Below are positions 11,280-19,056 of a stretch of DNA of 64,000 nt, in pieces. Source of the DNA: Salinibacterium sp. PAMC 21357 (GTDB lineage Bacteria > Actinomycetota > Actinomycetes > Actinomycetales > Microbacteriaceae); the NCBI RefSeq assembly GCF_000247645.1, contig NZ_AHWA01000006.1:248001-312000 (forward strand), written 5' to 3'. Below the pieces are notes generated by a model, which did not search any database, was not told the DNA's origin, and saw nothing but the letters and a program-made list of their open reading frames with translations. A program made the translations under genes and the position numbers. Numbering within the stretch: the stretch's first letter is position 1; each line of letters opens with the position of its first letter.

Positions 11280-12596
11280 GTGCCAAAAATCTTGATTGTC
11301 GGCGGCGGTTACGCCGGTTTTTACACTGCCCGTAAGCTCGAAAAGTGGCTGCGTCGCGGCGAAGCAGAGGTCACCATGGTTGACCCTCTTCCCTACATGA
11401 CATACCAGCCGTTCCTGCCGGAGGTTGCTGCAGGAACTATTGAGCCTCGCCACGCTGTGGTCCCTCACCGTCGCCACCTGAAGACCACCAAGGTCATCAC
11501 GGCGAAGGTCACGGGAGTGAACCACGCGACGAAGACCGCCACGATTCAGCCTGAAGTGGGCGACTCGTGGGAGATGGACTACGACCTCGTGGTTGTCACC
11601 GCTGGTGCTGTGTCGCGCACGTTCCCGATTCCGGGCGTTGCTGACGAGGCCATCGGCATGAAGACGATCGAAGAGGCTGTCGCCGTTCGCGACCGTCTCC
11701 TCACCAACTTCGACAAGGCAGCTACGTTGCCTGCTGGCCCCGAGCGCGACCGTCTCCTGACGTTCGTTGTTGTTGGTGGCGGCTTTGCCGGTATTGAAGC
11801 GTTCGGTGAAATGCGCAGCCTGGCGTCATCACTGCTGCCGCTCTACCCGAGCTTGAACTTCGAAGACACCCACTTCCACCTCATCGAGGCAATGGGCCGC
11901 ATCATGCCCGAAGTTTCGTTGAAAACGAGCCTGTGGGTTATCAAGAACCTCGCCGAGCGTGGTGCCCAAATTCACCTCGACACCCAGCTGAAGTCTGCTG
12001 TGGGTGGCGTTGTTGAGTTGTCGACCGGCGAAAGCTTCGAGTCAGACACCATCGTGTGGACTGCTGGCGTTATGGCCAACCCGGTTGTGCGCAGCACCGA
12101 CCTTCCGATCGAAGAGCGCGGCCGCATCCGCGTGCAGGCTGACCTTCGTGTCATCAACGACGACGGTGTTGTCGAGGGTGCTTGGGGCGCTGGCGACGTC
12201 TGTGCTGTTCCTGACCTCACCGGTGGTGGCGTTGGCGGCTTCTGTGTACCCAACGCCCAGCACGCTGTTCGCCAGGCCAAAACTATGGCCAAGAACATCG
12301 TTGCCGACCTTCGTGGCGAAGGCACCAAGGACTACTTCCACAAGAACGCCGGTGCGGTTGCCGGCCTTGGTCTTTACCACGGCGTCTTCCAGTCCGGCAA
12401 GATCGCGATCAAGGGCCTCCCGGCCTGGTTCATGCACCGTGGCTACCACGGTATGGCAATGCCGATGTTCGAGCGCAAGGCTCGAGTATTCAGCAACTGG
12501 ATCACGAGCTTCTTCTGGGGCCGCGACACCATCTCCATCGAGGCACGCGTAGAACCACGCCGCGCCTTCGAAGAGTTCGCATCACGCCCCAAGTAG
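11280..12596 (+). CDS. ndh: Type II NADH:quinone oxidoreductase (NDH-2)
   Basis: A monotopic membrane flavoprotein that transfers electrons from NADH to quinone without pumping protons. The FAD motif ILIVGGGYAGFYTARKLE is at the N-terminus. A second dinucleotide motif, FVVVGGGFAGIEAFGE, lies at about residue 163, and GAGDVCAVPDL is the second FAD contact. The length of 438 residues is usual. It starts with GTG after AGGAG. The last 16 codons and the following tRNA are repeated at 17342-17503, marking the left edge of an island. Confidence 0.93.
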   Translation: MPKILIVGGGYAGFYTARKLEKWLRRGEAEVTMVDPLPYMTYQPFLPEVAAGTIEPRHAVVPHRRHLKTTKVITAKVTGVNHATKTATIQPEVGDSWEMDYDLVVVTAGAVSRTFPIPGVADEAIGMKTIEEAVAVRDRLLTNFDKAATLPAGPERDRLLTFVVVGGGFAGIEAFGEMRSLASSLLPLYPSLNFEDTHFHLIEAMGRIMPEVSLKTSLWVIKNLAERGAQIHLDTQLKSAVGGVVELSTGESFESDTIVWTAGVMANPVVRSTDLPIEERGRIRVQADLRVINDDGVVEGAWGAGDVCAVPDLTGGGVGGFCVPNAQHAVRQAKTMAKNIVADLRGEGTKDYFHKNAGAVAGLGLYHGVFQSGKIAIKGLPAWFMHRGYHGMAMPMFERKARVFSNWITSFFWGRDTISIEARVEPRRAFEEFASRPK

Positions 12597-12705
12597 TGTG
12601 ATCGCATGCTCCACGCAGAAGCGTGGGGCGTGCCCCGATAGCCCAATTGGCAGAGGCAGATGACTTAAAATCATCACAGTCAGGGTTCGAGTCCCTGTCG
12701 GGGCA
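12543..12705 (+). repeat. Left copy of the ndh-tail/tRNA direct repeat
   Basis: This 163-bp segment covers the last 48 or so coding bases of ndh, a short spacer with a CCACGC/GCGTGG hairpin (12611-12626), and the entire tRNA gene. It recurs in the same orientation at 17342-17503. By eye I count about a dozen differences. The first 48 bases are identical; changes concentrate in the spacer and the tRNA arms. This copy has the intact ndh and the well-paired tRNA, so it is taken as the native one. Confidence 0.9.
12632..12705 (+). tRNA. tRNA with anticodon UAA (Leu by anticodon), short variable arm
   Basis: A full cloverleaf can be drawn. The acceptor is GCCCCGA/TCGGGGC, the D arm is GCC/GGC around AATTGG, and the anticodon stem is GATGA/TCATC with loop CTTAAAA, giving anticodon TAA. 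The T stem is CAGGG/CCCTG with TTCGAGT. No CCA is encoded. The anticodon would read UUA (Leu), but the variable region is only about 5 nt (ACAGT). Ordinary bacterial tRNA-Leu has a long extra arm. The gene is certain; the charging identity is not. Confidence 0.88.
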
Positions 12706-12830
12706 CTGTTTTTAAGATGGGCTAAATTCTCATAACCTACAGAAATATTTGACGATTTCAATCCCCGCCGAGCCGTTCCGTGCCCGCGCTTTGGTCGCGC
12801 TTGAAGCAGCTCTATCGTTACTTAGAGCGT

Positions 12831-13080
12831 TCACCAAGGTGTCCAAGTCATCCGTCGATTAGGGACATGCGCTTTCGCGCGGCAGGCGGCCACATCGAAC
12901 CATCCGTCGCCGTAATTGGACTGCTTTATGTGGTGGGTTTCCGTTCCCGAGGTGCAGTCCTTCCTCAGCCTTACATCCCGCACACAGGGCGATGTCGAGC
13001 ACGAGAAAACCCGAGAATGGGACAACTCGGAACGAGTAGCTCTTCGAGGTGCCGACGACGATCCTGCTCTTGACCAGCAT
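12831..13080 (-). pseudogene. Decayed small gene with HNH-like residues, frameshifted
   Basis: The region reads leftward in two frames with coding-like codon use. The first part (from ATG 13080) contains a CxxC pair in ALCAGCKAEEGL. Near 12940 the coding pattern passes to another frame with THHIKQSNYGDGW and AACRAKAHV, ending at 12831. The CxxC, HHI and C...H order recalls a small HNH nuclease. The final CxxCH element is altered and one indel separates the halves. I read it as a dead gene; the family assignment is tentative. Confidence 0.3.
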
Positions 13081-13089
13081 CGCATTCTC

Positions 13090-13332
13090 TCAGACGCTGA
13101 TTCGTCGGCGCAGAACGTCCACGATGCGAACACTTAGAGGGATTGCTCGCCTCAGTGGAGGCTGGTGTAAGACAAGTTCCTGTTCCGAACGCTTCGCGAC
13201 CAGTTCTCCGTTCTCGTCGGTCGAGCAAAACAGGTCGGAGACGAAGGCGCGCTTAGGCAAATGCTGACGCCCCAAGGTCGACACACTAGCGTGCTGTGCG
13301 CGGGTGTGGTCGAATGAAGCATGAATGCTCAA
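13090..13332 (-). CDS. Small hypothetical ORF divergent from the DUF4062 gene
   Basis: An 80-codon leftward ORF with GC-rich third positions (for example over RAFVSDLFCSTDENGELVAK), suggesting it is or was coding. It ends 9 bp before the HNH-like fragment and may be its upstream neighbour or its former N-terminal part. Its start overlaps the start of the DUF4062 gene by 12 bp on the opposite strand. I do not recognise a family. With the fragment above it accounts for most of the 615-bp gap 12706-13320; the rest is AT-rich sequence after the tRNA. Confidence 0.3.
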   Translation of the reverse strand: MSIHASFDHTRAQHASVSTLGRQHLPKRAFVSDLFCSTDENGELVAKRSEQELVLHQPPLRRAIPLSVRIVDVLRRRISV

Positions 13333-14472
13333 CTTCCGCTGCTCTTCGATCGCCAGTCAAGCAATTCGGCCCCAGATACTCTCGCGCTCCAATCGTGGGG
13401 TGCGGCACAACGAGTGTTCGTCAGCAGTTTGATCAGTTCGATGCCCGAGGAACGTGCTGCAGCTCGTGAGGCAATCCAAGCCGTAGGTGCTTTGCCGGTG
13501 ATGTTCGAGCACGAACTTGGTGCCCAGGACATTACTGCCGAAGCGGCCTACTTAGACGGCGTGAGGCAATCCGGTATCTACGTCGGCGTTTTCGGCCCGC
13601 GTTACGGCGTGCGAACCCCGACAGGCAGATCGGCGACCCACGACGAGCTCAAGGAGGCGGAGCGGCTTGGCTTGCGGCTCTGCCTGTTTACGGTGGGTTA
13701 TGGAACACCATCGATGGACGGAGATCAGCGCGACCTTGTCGACGGTCTTCGAAATCTCTATACGACCAGTGCCTTTAGCGACGCTTCAGGCCTGAAGGAG
13801 AAGCTGCACCGCAGACTTAGCGACCTCGCAGCTGAAGAATTATTGCCATGGGTGCGCATCGGCAGGGTGCTGATTCGCGCTTCGAACGTCACCGAGGCGG
13901 CGGGCACCTACGGGATCACCGCCATTGTGTACGACCGAACTATCCTCGCGGAGCTCAAACGCATGGGCGAGGAAAGGTCTCAGGTCCCCTACGCAAATCA
14001 CCTCGAAGCAGGTGACGCGCAAATCGAACAAGTGGCGACGTCCGTGACCAATTCCGCCTTTACAGAAGTGACTATTAAACTCCAACTCCGAAAGCCCCAG
14101 CAATCTGGTCTGGGGCGTATGGCAATCAACGGCATCAAGCCCGATGAGATCATCGTTGCTTCACTCTCAGACGGGCTATTCGGAACTTCCCACCTGCCAA
14201 GAGGGACCCTCGGGATGGTGCGCCCAGCTAATCCCCTGGAAGAGCTATCGAGCGCTGGGGTACCGGATCGCGCACTTCGCTCAATCGGCAGACTCCTTTT
14301 CGGGGAGTTCTTGATGCGCGGTGAGCACGCCACAACGATCGAGCGCTTTGACCTTGGACCGGTACAGGAAGGGGTGCGGCGACTGGTGGCAACCTGGACC
14401 CCGCCGCGCCGACACTCTAATGCGCCCGATTTATCACCAGTTACGCTTGACGGGAGCGTTCGGCTGGGTTAG
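13321..14472 (+). CDS. DUF4062 domain-containing protein
   Basis: A 383-residue protein with an N-terminal DUF4062 domain (about residues 30-125): RVFVSSLISSMPEERAAARE, then SGIYVGVFGPRYG and SATHDELKEAERLG. DUF4062 is a TIR-like Rossmann fold often joined to effector or NTPase modules in bacterial conflict proteins. The C-terminal 250 residues match nothing I know and contain no Walker motifs, so it is not a STAND NTPase. No clear ribosome-binding site precedes the ATG. A 223-bp gap separates it from the downstream pair, which may be a separate transcript. Confidence 0.75.
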   Translation: MNAQLPLLFDRQSSNSAPDTLALQSWGAAQRVFVSSLISSMPEERAAAREAIQAVGALPVMFEHELGAQDITAEAAYLDGVRQSGIYVGVFGPRYGVRTPTGRSATHDELKEAERLGLRLCLFTVGYGTPSMDGDQRDLVDGLRNLYTTSAFSDASGLKEKLHRRLSDLAAEELLPWVRIGRVLIRASNVTEAAGTYGITAIVYDRTILAELKRMGEERSQVPYANHLEAGDAQIEQVATSVTNSAFTEVTIKLQLRKPQQSGLGRMAINGIKPDEIIVASLSDGLFGTSHLPRGTLGMVRPANPLEELSSAGVPDRALRSIGRLLFGEFLMRGEHATTIERFDLGPVQEGVRRLVATWTPPRRHSNAPDLSPVTLDGSVRLG

Positions 14473-14695
14473 TTGAGCCCGTACTTGGCCTCGACCGCGG
14501 TGCCGGACGCAGCAACAGCGCCCACTTCTTTCAGCTATGACCGTTCTTGTATACGACGTCAAAAATGAGTTCCTCACGAAGTATGTAATCCGGCGCAGAG
14601 GCGGCCAACTGTCGAGTCAGCACCCGAGATTTGCGGCTCCGCCCAGACGAAGTTGCCAATTAGACTGAGAGAACTTCAATGGAGATAGGAAACTA

Positions 14696-15943
14696 ATGGC
14701 ACGCAAGCGCGGGTTCTTTGCGGAGATACAGCACCAGAATCAGGTAGCGGCTAGACAAGCGGAGCAGCGACAGCGAGCCGCTGCCGCAGCGCAGCGTCGG
14801 GTGGTAGCCGCTCAGCGCGCCGAACAACTCCTTATCGCTGCATCGATTAAGGCATCCGAAGCAGATCGCAAGCGTATGGAGCGGGAAGTTGCCGCGGCCC
14901 ATGTCGCTTCTATGCTGGCGCAGGTCGAGGAGCAGAACACGGAGCTAGCAGCGATATACGATGAACTCGACACGTTGCTTCAGTCGACTCTTAGCGTCGA
15001 TGACTACGTTGAGTTAGCTTCCCTGAAGCGGGATTTCGAACAACCGAAATTCGAGCATTCCGACCTTGAAGCACCCGTACCACGGCCCATTGCAATTGTG
15101 CCGTCTCAGGAGCCAACCCCTCAACCTCCGGCAAAAGCAACCGGCCTCTTCGGGCGGAAGAAGAAGACTGAAGACGCCCAAGCACTCGCTGATGCGGAGT
15201 TCCAGACAGCTCACGCCCGCTGGAGGAGTGAGATGGAGACGCTTCCGGGTCGGCAAGCCAAACTAGACGCCGACTACCAGAAATTGGAGGCGAGCAGGGT
15301 CGCCCAATTAGAGAAGGAGCGTGAGCGTTACGTCCAAGAGTCGGCCGAACAAGAGTCCGAAGTCGCCGAGCACAACGCCTCGGTGGACAAGTTCATTGCG
15401 GACCTTGGCTATGGAGCAGAAGGAGCCGTGCAGGAATACGTCGGAATCGTCCTCGCTAATTCGCTATATCCAGAGCATTTCGAAGTTGAACACGAGGCAG
15501 ATTTCGAGCCGAGCACTGCAGAACTAAAAGTGCGAGCGCTCGTGCCGGGCCCCGGTAAAATTCCAGCAATAAAATCTTTCAAGTACACAAAGGCGACCGA
15601 CCAAATATCGACAGTTGCCCTGGCCCAGAAGGATGCCAAGGGGCGGTACGCGAACGTCGTGAACCAGATCGCTCTTCGCACTCTTCACGAAATATTTGAG
15701 GCGGACCGACGCGGGATCATCCAGTCCATTTCACTCGAGGTGGGAACGGAAACAATCAGCCCGGCAACGGGCAAGTCCGTCTACATTCCATTCGTTTTGG
15801 TGGGAGCATCTCGGGATTCGTTTATGACAATCGATCTTGGCAACGTGGTTCCGGCTGCGACATTAGGCCATCTCGGAGCGTCCGTCTCGAAGAGCCCCTT
15901 TGATCTAACTCCGGTCGCAACCACGGGCATCCGACGATCGTGA
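14696..15943 (+). CDS. Coiled-coil protein of unknown function, coupled to the DUF4041/GIY-YIG gene
   Basis: A 415-residue soluble protein. Residues 10-95 are an Ala/Arg/Gln/Glu-rich coiled coil. A Pro-rich linker follows (about 127-146), then a basic GRKKK patch and a second coil (about 165-230). A globular C-terminal domain (about 235-405) contains VRALVPGPGKIPAIK and ISPATGKSVYIPFVLV. I do not recognise a catalytic motif. It starts with ATG after GGAGA, and its stop overlaps the next GTG start (GTGA), so the two proteins are probably made in fixed ratio and act together. Confidence 0.7.
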   Translation: MARKRGFFAEIQHQNQVAARQAEQRQRAAAAAQRRVVAAQRAEQLLIAASIKASEADRKRMEREVAAAHVASMLAQVEEQNTELAAIYDELDTLLQSTLSVDDYVELASLKRDFEQPKFEHSDLEAPVPRPIAIVPSQEPTPQPPAKATGLFGRKKKTEDAQALADAEFQTAHARWRSEMETLPGRQAKLDADYQKLEASRVAQLEKERERYVQESAEQESEVAEHNASVDKFIADLGYGAEGAVQEYVGIVLANSLYPEHFEVEHEADFEPSTAELKVRALVPGPGKIPAIKSFKYTKATDQISTVALAQKDAKGRYANVVNQIALRTLHEIFEADRRGIIQSISLEVGTETISPATGKSVYIPFVLVGASRDSFMTIDLGNVVPAATLGHLGASVSKSPFDLTPVATTGIRRS

Positions 15944-17259
15944 CGGTCAGGTTCAATCCACCGCCTGGATGGCCTCAGCCTCCGTCGGCTTGGCGCCCAC
16001 CCGCCGGTTGGTCCCCAGATCCGACATGGCCGGAGGCCCCAGCTGGTTGGCAGCTGTGGCTTGACGATGAATCAAGCGAGATAGCGCCGGCTGGCGAGAT
16101 CGAGACGCCTGCTCCGAATCTCGAGGTTCGAGACACTACGGATGATCGCGCGAGGCGCCTTGTTTTCCTGGAAGCCGAGAATGCGGCTCTTCGAAGCCGC
16201 CTCGACGCCTCCTCGCCCGCGGAACATATCGACCTCGACGATCAGCGCGTGCTTCAGGACGTTGGTATCTACCGCTACCACCATCCTCTTGAATCAGCCG
16301 TGCTCTATTTGGATGACCTAACTGCGATCGAGGCGTCCATCGCTGAGACCGTGAAGTCAGGTCGAGCCATCGTGAAGTCCAACATGTTCACGTTCGACGG
16401 TTCGCTCGCCAAGGGGCGCAAAATGGCAGACGACTTGGGAAAGCTAATGCTTCGCGCCTACAACAGTGAGGCGGATAACAGTATTCGCACCCTGAAGCTC
16501 GGAAATGTGGTCACCGCCAAACGCCGGATCGAGGCGTCCCGGACGGCCATTGCACGCCTAGGCGGAATGATGGATATGAAGATAAGTGATGAGTTTCACG
16601 AACTTCGCATCCGTGAAGTAGAACTCACCGCTGACTGGCTAATGAAGAAGCAAGAAGAGCGCGAGCTGCAGCGGGAGCAACGCGCCGAGCTGCGCGAGCA
16701 ACGTCGAGTTGAACAAGAACTTTCGGCCGAGCGGGAGCGCCTCGATAAGGAACGCACACATCTTGTGAACGCGCTGAATGTGATTCACGCAGGCGGGCGG
16801 GCCGACCCAAGCCTTGAGAGCAAACTGGCAGCGATTGACGACGCCATCGCGCAGAACGATTATCGAATCGCCAATATTCGTGCTGGCTACGTCTATGTGA
16901 TCTCGAATCGCGGCGCGTTCGGCGCGAACGTCGTCAAAATCGGGCTCACTCGTCGGTTAGATCCCATCGACCGTGTGAATGAGCTTGGGGGCGCCTCCGT
17001 GCCATTTCGTTTCGATGTGCACACCTTGTTCTTTTCGGAAGATGCAGTATCGCTTGAAAGCGAGTTGCATAAACATTTCGCTGAGCGAGCGTTGAACCGC
17101 GCCAACTCTCGAAAGGAGTTCTTTTTCGCCACTCCGGCAGAGGTCCGCGAGGTGCTTCGGGACAAGGTCGGAAGCCTTCTCGAATTCAACGAGCAGGCTG
17201 ATGCTGCGGAGTACCTTCAATCAGTGGGGCTCTGGCCAGAGGCTTTCTCGAAAGCGTAG
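15940..17259 (+). CDS. DUF4041 and T5orf172 (GIY-YIG nuclease-like) domain protein with PPxGW repeats
   Basis: A 439-residue protein with three parts. The N-terminal 40 residues carry repeated Pro-Gly-Trp motifs (PPPGWP, PPAGWSPDP, APAGWQLW), as in actinobacterial DUF2510-like regions. A DUF4041 domain with a long helix follows (about 100-310). A T5orf172 GIY-YIG-type domain closes the protein (about 316-400) with YVYVISN, VVKIGLTRR, LESELHKHF and NRANSRKEFFF, which supply the Tyr, Arg, Glu and Asn expected of the nuclease fold. It starts with GTG inside the upstream stop. DUF4041-T5orf172 proteins occur in phages and defence islands. Confidence 0.82.
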   Translation: MTVRFNPPPGWPQPPSAWRPPAGWSPDPTWPEAPAGWQLWLDDESSEIAPAGEIETPAPNLEVRDTTDDRARRLVFLEAENAALRSRLDASSPAEHIDLDDQRVLQDVGIYRYHHPLESAVLYLDDLTAIEASIAETVKSGRAIVKSNMFTFDGSLAKGRKMADDLGKLMLRAYNSEADNSIRTLKLGNVVTAKRRIEASRTAIARLGGMMDMKISDEFHELRIREVELTADWLMKKQEERELQREQRAELREQRRVEQELSAERERLDKERTHLVNALNVIHAGGRADPSLESKLAAIDDAIAQNDYRIANIRAGYVYVISNRGAFGANVVKIGLTRRLDPIDRVNELGGASVPFRFDVHTLFFSEDAVSLESELHKHFAERALNRANSRKEFFFATPAEVREVLRDKVGSLLEFNEQADAAEYLQSVGLWPEAFSKA

Positions 17260-17341
17260 AAAGGGTTCCGGCGGCCCTCGTCTAAATTTCTTTCTACTCG
17301 GAAAACTTGGCGTTCGCGGCCGGGCCCGACCCACTTTCGAA

Positions 17342-17503
17342 GCACGCGTAGAACCACGCCGCGCCTTCGAAGAGTTCGCATCACGCCCCTAAGTAGTGTG
17401 ATCGCATGCTCCACGCATTGCGTCGGGCGTGCCCCGATTAACCAATTGGCAGATGCAGATGACTTAAAATCATCACAGTCGGGCTCGAGTCCCGGTCGGG
17501 GCA
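17342..17503 (+). repeat. Right copy of the ndh-tail/tRNA direct repeat
   Basis: This matches 12543-12705 in the same orientation. The ndh tail still encodes the last Ndh residues (ARVEPRRAFEEFASRP) and then stops, because one inserted T creates TAA. The spacer hairpin and the tRNA have several substitutions and deletions. It marks the right boundary of the island. Keeping 48 identical coding bases without a functional ndh suggests fairly recent duplication or import from a close relative. Confidence 0.88.
17431..17503 (+). pseudogene. Degenerate copy of the UAA-anticodon tRNA
   Basis: The acceptor stem and the anticodon arm (GATGA CTTAAAA TCATC) are unchanged from the tRNA at 12632. The D arm has lost pairing (GCCC became AACC and GAGGC became GATGC). 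The T arm has a 1-bp deletion, and its loop reads CTCGAGT in place of TTCGAGT. It is probably not a working tRNA. Confidence 0.75.
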
Positions 17504-17506
17504 ATA

Positions 17507-17634
17507 TTAGTCGGGAAGGCTTTCCGCGAGCAGGTTCTGGATGCGCGCCTTGATGTCATCGCCGATCGGGCGGACGTCATTGATTCCTTTGCCCTTCGGG
17601 GCAACGAGTTCCCGGTCCAGGTTGCCCGTGTTAT
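17507..17634 (-). pseudogene. Fragment of an arsenate reductase gene (C-terminus only)
   Basis: Read leftward, the fragment encodes about 38 residues ending LLAESLPD. It closely follows the C-terminus of the intact arsC at 18616 (ELV-P-GKG, VRPI-DDIKARIQ-LLAE-LP). Similarity ends at about 17634, exactly where the stop of the neighbouring leftward gene lies. The DNA is only moderately similar to the intact arsC, so it is a remnant of a second allele, not a recent copy. Confidence 0.7.
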
Positions 17635-18427
17635 CTAGGACAGCCGTTTTGCGTGGCGCTCGAATCCTTCTACGGCGGTTTTGAGAGCGTGGACTGCAAC
17701 GGTAAGAGCCACTGTTGTCAATCCCCAACTAGAAGTCATGAAATATGTGTGCTTGGGGAGACCGGCTACCAGCCGACGCTCTAAGAGCATTAGCGAGGTC
17801 GCCTTGTTGCCATGAGCCATTCCGCTGCACAATCGCCACGTAGTCAACAGAGTCATTGTTGTCACATCACAATTTTGTGATTTGTCCGCAGCTATCAGCA
17901 TGTCGGTCGTCGTTATGGGGGCTAGGTCCAACTTGCGCTGGCGGTTTGCGGGTCGAAGGTCACGCAGCTCGGTGAGTCGCGAAAATAGACGCTCCGTCAC
18001 CGCCGTGTGTTCCATGCCGAAAGCGAGGGCAAGCTGACTGGCATCCTGGTGCGACCACCAGATGAGGCGCAGGGCCTGAATGATTCGTTTGTCACTCTTA
18101 TTTGGCGCGAGGAGCCAAATCGCCGTGGATGCTGTTTCAATCGCAGTCCGCATCAGGGTGTATCCAGAGGAAGTCGGTAAACCGTGGCTCTGACAGTGCC
18201 TCGAAAAAGTCTCTAAATGATCAATTGAAATAGGCGAGCTGATGGTGGATCTGGTTTGAGAGCGGGTCATAAGCTGTGTTCGCATCTTCCCGCGCGAGCA
18301 CACCACCGGGGACTGCTGTTATTGCGTCGAGTCTCTGTTGAAGGCCCACTAGAACTCCGAATAGCTTTTCCGCGCGGGCGAGATCTCTCAACTCATCGGC
18401 ATCGTTCTCGAAACTCTCTTGAGGCAT
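17635..18427 (-). pseudogene. Frameshifted hypothetical protein with an R-x6-H (HEPN-like) motif
   Basis: Two overlapping leftward frames read as one protein. The first (18427 to about 18225) starts MPQESFENDADELRDLARAE and ends NQIHHQLAYFN. The second continues IDHLETFSRHCQSHGLP and ends at 17635. One indel near 18222 joins them. The second half has IRLIWWSHQDASQ-type helices and a WRLCSGMAHG block, an R-x6-H arrangement reminiscent of HEPN or DUF5677-like proteins. Third-position GC is lower than in the neighbours, suggesting transfer. Function is unknown and the gene is probably dead. Confidence 0.5.
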
Positions 18428-18615
18428 CTGCTATTAGTAGCATCCGAACGCGGACAAGGCGCAGCATTCTGGCGCCGTTGTGCTCTCGGGTCGGATCGAC
18501 AAGATGTGCGGGCATAAATCCTCCGGGATGAAAGGGCAATATTTCACTCGCACCAAGCACCGGGTCCGCGACTACGAAAAGGGTTCTGATGGTGCCTTGC
18601 CTTTGTGCAGCGCAC

Positions 18616-19056
18616 CTAGGCGGGAAGAATTTCCGCCAGCAGGCTCTGGATGCGCGCCTTGATGTCATCGCGAATCGGGCGCACCTCTTCGAGACCTTTG
18701 CCGCGGGGGTCTACGAGCTCCCAGTCCTCGTAGCGTTTGCCGGGGAAGATGGGGCAGACGTCGCCGCAGCCCATCGTGATGACAACATCCGAGGCTTGCA
18801 CCTGGTCAGTTGTCATCAGCTGGGGGACTGCCTGCGAGATGTCGATGCCTTCTTCGGCCATGGCCAAGATCGCGGTGGGATTGATTTCGTTGCCGGGCTC
18901 AGAGCCGCCCGAACGCACCTCGACCGCGCCATTCGAGAGCGCTGTCATGTAGCCGGCTGCCATTTGTGAGCGGCCAGCGTTGTGGATGCACACGAAGAGA
19001 ACGACAGGCTTGCGGGCGCCGGGAGTGGGAGCAGAGGGGGCAGTTGCGGTGGTCAT
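18616..19056 (-). CDS. arsC: Arsenate reductase, low-molecular-weight phosphatase family
   Basis: Reduces arsenate to arsenite, the form that is exported. The LMW-PTP P-loop C-x5-R is in VLFVCIHNAGRSQM (Cys about 23). The further redox cysteines are in TMGCGDVCPIFPG, as in thioredoxin- or mycothiol-linked ArsC. The C-terminal DDIKARI helix is typical. The length of 146 residues is normal. It lies downstream of the ArsR-ArsC fusion gene on the same strand with a 63-bp gap, probably in one transcript. Confidence 0.88.
   Translation of the reverse strand: MTTATAPSAPTPGARKPVVLFVCIHNAGRSQMAAGYMTALSNGAVEVRSGGSEPGNEINPTAILAMAEEGIDISQAVPQLMTTDQVQASDVVITMGCGDVCPIFPGKRYEDWELVDPRGKGLEEVRPIRDDIKARIQSLLAEILPA

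Follow-up and report, generated by a model that had tools for sequence, protein, structure and literature searches.

The window analysed here, a stretch of 64,000 nucleotides of the genome of Salinibacterium sp. PAMC 21357 (Microbacteriaceae), carries a composite island between the genes ndh and arsC, directly behind the gene for tRNA-Leu(UAA). Three cargo open reading frames (ORFs), already reported as accessory genes in a previous sequence-only reading of this DNA, lie between the copies of a direct repeat (12538-12705 and 17337-17503, 92% over 168 bases). The repeat comprises the final 59 bases of ndh, a 35-bp spacer and the entire 75-nt tRNA-Leu(UAA), and ARAGORN calls a tRNA-Leu(taa) gene in both copies. 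A tyrosine integrase wreck follows the left tRNA. Beyond the right copy a further insert of about 1 kb is nested between an arsC tail and the real arsC (Table 1).

Table 1. Features of the island and its flanks (positions in the window)
Feature	Position	Strand	Evidence
ndh (NADH dehydrogenase-like flavoprotein), intact, left flank	11280..12596	+	Pfam Pyr_redox_2 2.1e-38
Left repeat copy: ndh tail, spacer, intact tRNA-Leu(UAA)	12538..12706	+	
Intact tRNA-Leu(UAA), side of the left attachment site (attL)	12632..12706	+	ARAGORN; Rfam 60.7 bits
Tyrosine integrase wreck, fragments with stop and frame change, pointing at the tRNA	12861-13263	-	tblastn, profile pieces
DUF4062-domain protein, 383 aa	13321..14472	+	PF13271 4.1e-19
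mREase_IV-like protein, 415 aa	14696..15943	+	PADLOC mREase_IV 1.9e-34
SNIPE / PD-Lambda-1 homologue (DUF4041 + T5orf172), 439 aa	15940..17259	+	PADLOC PD-Lambda-1 6.7e-95
Right repeat copy: decayed ndh tail and spacer	17337..17429	+	
Pseudo-tRNA-Leu(UAA), candidate right attachment site (attR), sole tRNA 3'-end repeat found in island	17430..17504	+	Rfam 30.3 bits
arsC 3' tail remnant, ~118 bp	17507..17625	-	80% to 18617-18734
Second insert, ~1 kb	17626..18615		54.7% GC vs window 60.6%
ORF in second insert, 223 aa	17635-18306	-	Sub-threshold DUF5677 match, E 0.22
arsC (LMWPc arsenate reductase), intact, right flank	18616..19056	-	PF01451 1.1e-19

Repeats, integrase wreck and cargo

The two repeat copies diverge at about one base in twelve and are therefore no assembly duplicate; the differences between them rule out an assembly echo as the origin of the repeat. 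Against an Rfam gathering score of 29, the left tRNA reaches 60.7 bits and the right tRNA 30.3 bits, and a cloverleaf-like minimum is found in the left tRNA only. By Rfam score and fold comparison the right tRNA-Leu(UAA) is a pseudogene. The left tRNA is 100% identical in six of the ten relatives that are syntenic at this locus, and ndh shows 92.9% identity over its full length to that of G014 (G and L numbers are our handles for genomes and loci). The right ndh tail (ndh') carries one substitution and one inserted base. It shares the bases of the host (G000) and G014 at positions where the other nine relatives differ and hence stems from the host itself or a close relative. No homology was found past the repeat ends by Smith-Waterman comparison with shuffled sequences, which equalled the scores in 0.54 and 0.52 of trials, nor was ndh homology found ahead of the right copy (17337). 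A direct repeat of the tRNA 3' end is present in the island, embedded in the 168-bp block. Since the island holds no further convincing tRNA 3' repeat (best ungapped 22-mer with 7 mismatches), the right pseudo-tRNA must hold the remnant of attR, if one exists.

The tRNA-Leu(UAA) itself measures 74-78 nt and has a short variable region (12632-12706 and 76 loci compared); the other tRNA-Leu genes read in the host genome (CAA, TAG, GAG, CAG) measure 83-85 nt. No second UAA tRNA occurs among the 41 of 45 host tRNA matches with anticodon read. A phage search with the left block gave 39 records, and the eight of them that were listed all match the tRNA part. Gordonia phage Keelan (MN586014) and Mycobacterium phage Sunshine924 (MZ322004) have an annotated tRNA-Leu, 81% and 76% similar.

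The 614 bp that separate the left tRNA from the DUF4062 gene contain the integrase wreck. It is matched by four of five integrases of a subfamily that is found behind tRNA-Leu(UAA) in other Microbacteriaceae: tblastn with those of L104, L208 and L235 gave E 2.4e-9 to 2.8e-9 (13263-12937 and 13146-12937/12940), and that of G019 (L070) matched 13089-12940 plus 12947-12861 with a summed E of 1.1e-13. No other match in the 64 kb is better than E 0.11, and the best of 50 shuffle controls scored 23.5 bits vs 50-51 bits for the real sequence. Two integrase profile pieces that reach or nearly reach significance, 12862-13089 (1.5e-7) and 12834-13133 (0.014), are collinear, as are two that are not significant, 12733-12858 (1.8) and 13093-13356 (2.3); by way of the former of these weak pieces the wreck may extend to 12733. 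Its strand and its end with respect to the tRNA are those of the subfamily integrases elsewhere. The integrase gene of a tRNA-site element is present here solely as this wreck. We found no sign of present mobility in the host genome, whose tyrosine recombinases amount to two PF00589 matches, one of them adjoining a parA-like gene, with no PF00239 resolvase found; by our reading both PF00589 proteins look like XerC/XerD.

The mREase_IV-like gene and the gene of the SNIPE homologue (PF13250 3.3e-19, PF10544 3e-14) overlap at their ends and form a gene pair. Homology suggests that the cargo is defence-like. First-insert DNA recurs in the 26 other genomes of the genus only as 190 bp in G010 and 29 bp in G016. 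The gene pair is found again in G040, from another family of the same taxonomic order (L179, 6997-9673; 44% and 55%), and this conservation across families suggests a two-gene SNIPE variant in actinobacteria.

The nested second direct repeat consists of the arsC 3' tail (17508-17625 vs 18617-18734, 80%). Past the right tRNA the order is arsC' tail, about 1 kb of other DNA and the real arsC, and the arsC' tail starts with its stop codon only 2 bp past that tRNA. The middle block 17337-17625 thereby shows the ends of both neighbours in native order, ndh tail-tRNA-arsC tail. Over 118 columns, two of which are spacer, the arsC' tail matches host arsC in 92, G011 in 96 and G014 in 88. It has a lysine codon (PKG), by our reading as in G011, G001, G005, G023 and G019, at a position where G014, G012, G010, G013, G007, G025 and host arsC encode arginine. 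Given the match counts and the lysine codon, the arsC' tail is no fresh copy of the local arsC; it is foreign-looking and diverged from host arsC. A joint import of the second insert and the arsC-side genes is unsupported: all 12 gene segments compared on both flanks, from ndh to a gene 7 kb past arsC, have their closest counterpart in G014. Leaving aside its arsC-tail and tRNA parts, the second insert had no match outside G000 among the matches listed for the 27 genus genomes. A plasmid search with the right part gave two records; the matches are short and fall on an arsC and on unannotated DNA that matches the tRNA part.

The sequence-only reading had described an island at 12543..17503, bounded by a 163-bp repeat with 48 bases of ndh and an entire duplicated tRNA, and without a recombinase. 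The repeat is real but longer, as given above; on the right, the island extends past 17503, where the nested arsC repeat flanks the additional insert. A whole tRNA does lie in both copies, but one of them is degenerate, and an intact recombinase gene is indeed missing, but integrase fragments are there.

The tRNA-Leu(UAA) site in relatives

The tRNA lies near ndh in 27 of 27 genus genomes (inverted in G003), and ndh, tRNA and arsC are kept together in ten same-genus relatives; extended regions were obtained for 20 of the 26 relatives. Alignment with relatives, the check proposed with the sequence-only reading, revealed empty single ndh-tRNA junctions in eight of the ten syntenic relatives, with 47-75 bp from tRNA to arsC. 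The other two bear different DNA, which bears out the proposed island hotspot. G014 has 1.1 kb with, by our reading, a helix-turn-helix gene and short ORFs. G005 has 2.5 kb with one 641-aa AAA ATPase (PF13175 3.6e-17; PADLOC AriA/GajA (Gabija)/Old-like), edged by the tRNA and a 29-bp tRNA 3' repeat which is separated from the arsC stop codon by 2 bp, just as in the middle block of the host. At E <= 0.001 no second tRNA copy is present at the locus in the 26 other genus genomes, G005 showing a partial 3'-end repeat only. This rules out an ancestral double tRNA, the arrangement named in the sequence-only reading as its counter-case.

For the family-wide survey 160 loci (20 + 80 + 60) were collected, of which 144 were kept after removal of duplicates and of loci without an ARAGORN tRNA-Leu(taa). 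Fourteen of the 144 have less than 6 kb of downstream sequence, and all counts are minimum values with a bias towards loci close to ndh and towards genomes with a query-like tRNA. With at most 4 mismatches in 22 allowed, a tRNA 3'-end repeat was found in 12 of 144 loci, each time downstream of the tRNA. Their span is 2.5-5.0 kb in four loci (G005, Clavibacter sp. VKM Ac-2872, Microcella pacifica and, as a weak case, G189) and 80-185 bp in the other eight. The repeats of the other islands at this site measure 23-40 bp and fall within the tRNA 3' half or immediately past it; L202 has a weak one of 17 bp.

A homologue of the G019 integrase occurs within 12 kb downstream in 10 of the 144 Microbacteriaceae loci; in seven it starts less than 200 bp behind the tRNA in minus orientation, and three are farther off. 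The tRNA-Leu(UAA) 3' end therefore looks like the attachment site of one integrase subfamily. The integrases of L104, L208 and L237 are open frames of 375-405 aa (PF00589, Phage_integrase, 1.7e-18 or better), those of L084, L115, L116 and L083 are broken or partial. Apart from a weak 18-bp one in L083, no tRNA repeat was seen at the integrase loci in the DNA surveyed. The Microcella pacifica island includes an integrase piece too (E 1.5e-7); in G005, L079, L202 and G014 none was better than E 0.4.

Several of these loci have features of their own. The Microcella pacifica island (L106) is 5.0 kb long with a 40-bp tRNA repeat at its edges, encodes a 946-aa ORF which by eye looks like a restriction-methylation enzyme, and is followed past the right repeat by an ndh end in opposite orientation. 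In L082, L197 and L220 the tRNA 3' end recurs 80 bp behind the gene, after a hairpin-like stretch that is similar in the three genomes; the whole looks like a tiny conserved element or a remnant. L061, L065, L066 and L074, from the same genus, have tRNA 3'-end repeats 146-185 bp behind the tRNA, with an intervening sequence partly common to some of them.

Origin of the island

The island is probably an integrative element, composite and now decayed, at a site that serves as a hotspot across Microbacteriaceae. A circle with an integrase of the subfamily would have arrived with the tRNA 3' end serving as attachment (att) site, carrying the SNIPE operon and the DUF4062 gene as cargo; the integrase would then have been lost, leaving the element fixed. 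Because a wrecked subfamily integrase lies at the canonical place, ordinary tRNA-site integration can account for the arrival, for which the sequence-only reading had invoked homologous import or movement in trans, and since the integrase survives as a wreck, decay can explain why no intact one is found. That reading was right in that an ndh tail plus a whole tRNA exceeds what tRNA-site integration duplicates, clear att repeats elsewhere measuring 23-40 bp. Integrase chemistry does not account for the ndh tail, and for this part of the repeat homologous recombination is our preferred guess. Tentatively, the circle might have captured the ndh tail and tRNA of a close relative by imprecise excision and entered via one crossover there. 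A single crossover in the captured piece would give one ndh-tail-tRNA block per side, of which the extra, right block would have decayed while selection maintained the left one. A separate event on the arsC side would have left the arsC tail with the 1-kb insert.

Several observations weigh against this origin. No att-sized repeat is present, the 168-bp block being longer than the clear repeats elsewhere, and a long repeat of the host type was seen at no other surveyed locus. The arsC' tail is not accounted for by the same circle and needs its separate event. The ndh' part is less decayed than the pseudo-tRNA and arsC' tail, unlike what one shared age would give. The fifth integrase query (L237) did not match the wreck, which Pfam does not recognise either (three pieces; PF00589 genome search), and no relative showing an intermediate state was found.

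Homologous recombination alone, by which a donor segment would have brought the cargo and a second ndh-tRNA-arsC junction with the integrase fragments as older passengers, is in our view unlikely. The native order of both neighbours' ends in the middle block speaks for it, as do an arsC' tail nearer to another species (G011) than to the closest relative (G014) and the absence of a mobile-type recombinase from the PF00589 and PF00239 searches of the host genome. The order cargo, block, second cargo is, however, unlike a single crossover of a circle with the whole block, the flanks show no donor tract, all 12 segments being closest to G014, and the integrase wreck sits at the canonical end. A duplication that came first, setting the 168-bp ndh-tail-tRNA unit in tandem by slippage or sister-chromosome recombination before an element integrated behind the first copy, would fit the G000/G014-type bases in the ndh part of both copies. 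It would lead one to expect a tRNA 3' repeat ahead of the second ndh tail, but neither that place nor the rest of the island yielded one, and none of the 26 other genus genomes searched has the tandem; we regard it as quite improbable. That the island is a live element without integrase, mobilised by an incoming relative either in trans or in cis (a functional cis-mobilizable element (CIME) or a satellite), seems highly improbable. Islands with tRNA 3' repeats and no integrase piece found (G005, Clavibacter L079, L202) and open-frame integrases do exist in the family; but the right tRNA and ndh tail are decayed, the same PF00589 and PF00239 searches found no helper in the host genome, and the genus genomes hold just the two scraps of first-insert DNA noted above.

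If it is a decayed integrative element, the apparent integrase-free oddity turns into a decayed case of an ordinary route. The findings also point to a hotspot in Microbacteriaceae at the tRNA-Leu(UAA) 3' end, which has an integrase subfamily of its own and houses several kinds of defence-like cargo, namely the SNIPE operon, the AriA/Gabija/OLD-like ATPase and a possible restriction enzyme. Should the long repeat turn out to be a homology arm that was captured, it would illustrate how islands without an integrase can still spread. A bolder version, to which we give little credence, sees the island as a cassette that brings its own homology arms (ndh tail, tRNA, arsC tail), by which host RecA places defence genes at this locus in any relative; if so, RecA and a portable copy of the junction would replace the lost integrase as means of spread.

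Comparison with known systems

No publication on this locus was among the matches listed in a literature search. PD-Lambda-1, reported in 95 of 114 Clavibacter genomes (PMC11856565), is now named SNIPE and is described as a nuclease that is anchored in the membrane and cleaves phage DNA as it is injected, with one or two transmembrane segments predicted in 66% of its homologues (PMC13190303). Judged from domain profiles, the protein of the island resembles SNIPE in combining DUF4041 with a C-terminal GIY-YIG-type nuclease domain, here T5orf172 (PMC13190303). It differs in a Trp/Pro-rich N-terminus with no hydrophobic segment visible by eye and in the mREase_IV-like partner gene directly upstream. 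The island of G005 occupies the same hotspot with one defence-like gene and no integrase piece found, but has the ordinary 29-bp tRNA 3' repeat as its boundary.

In tRNA-dependent lysogeny, the phage is described to supply a working tRNA while the host copy is destroyed, with a crossover core of about 10 bp (PMC10865867). In that system as in ours, an integrated actinobacterial element sits at a tRNA gene whose locus has two tRNA copies of full length (PMC10865867). Here, however, the good tRNA is the copy joined to the full, intact ndh, the far copy is dead and follows an ndh tail, and the shared block measures 168 bp, so we rejected this candidate.

A CIME is described as a decayed integrative and conjugative or integrative and mobilizable element that retains attL and attR (PMC5704250). 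Common to CIMEs and our island are the site-specific locus, the lost integrase, the retained cargo and the accretion of more than one insert at one tRNA (PMC5704250). The right repeat differs: in place of a short att site it comprises a complete pseudo-tRNA and the end of the gene upstream. With its integrase broken and attR to be sought only inside the pseudo-tRNA, the island is, by analogy, best read as an element that probably entered with its own integrase at the tRNA 3' end and has since decayed to a CIME-like relic.

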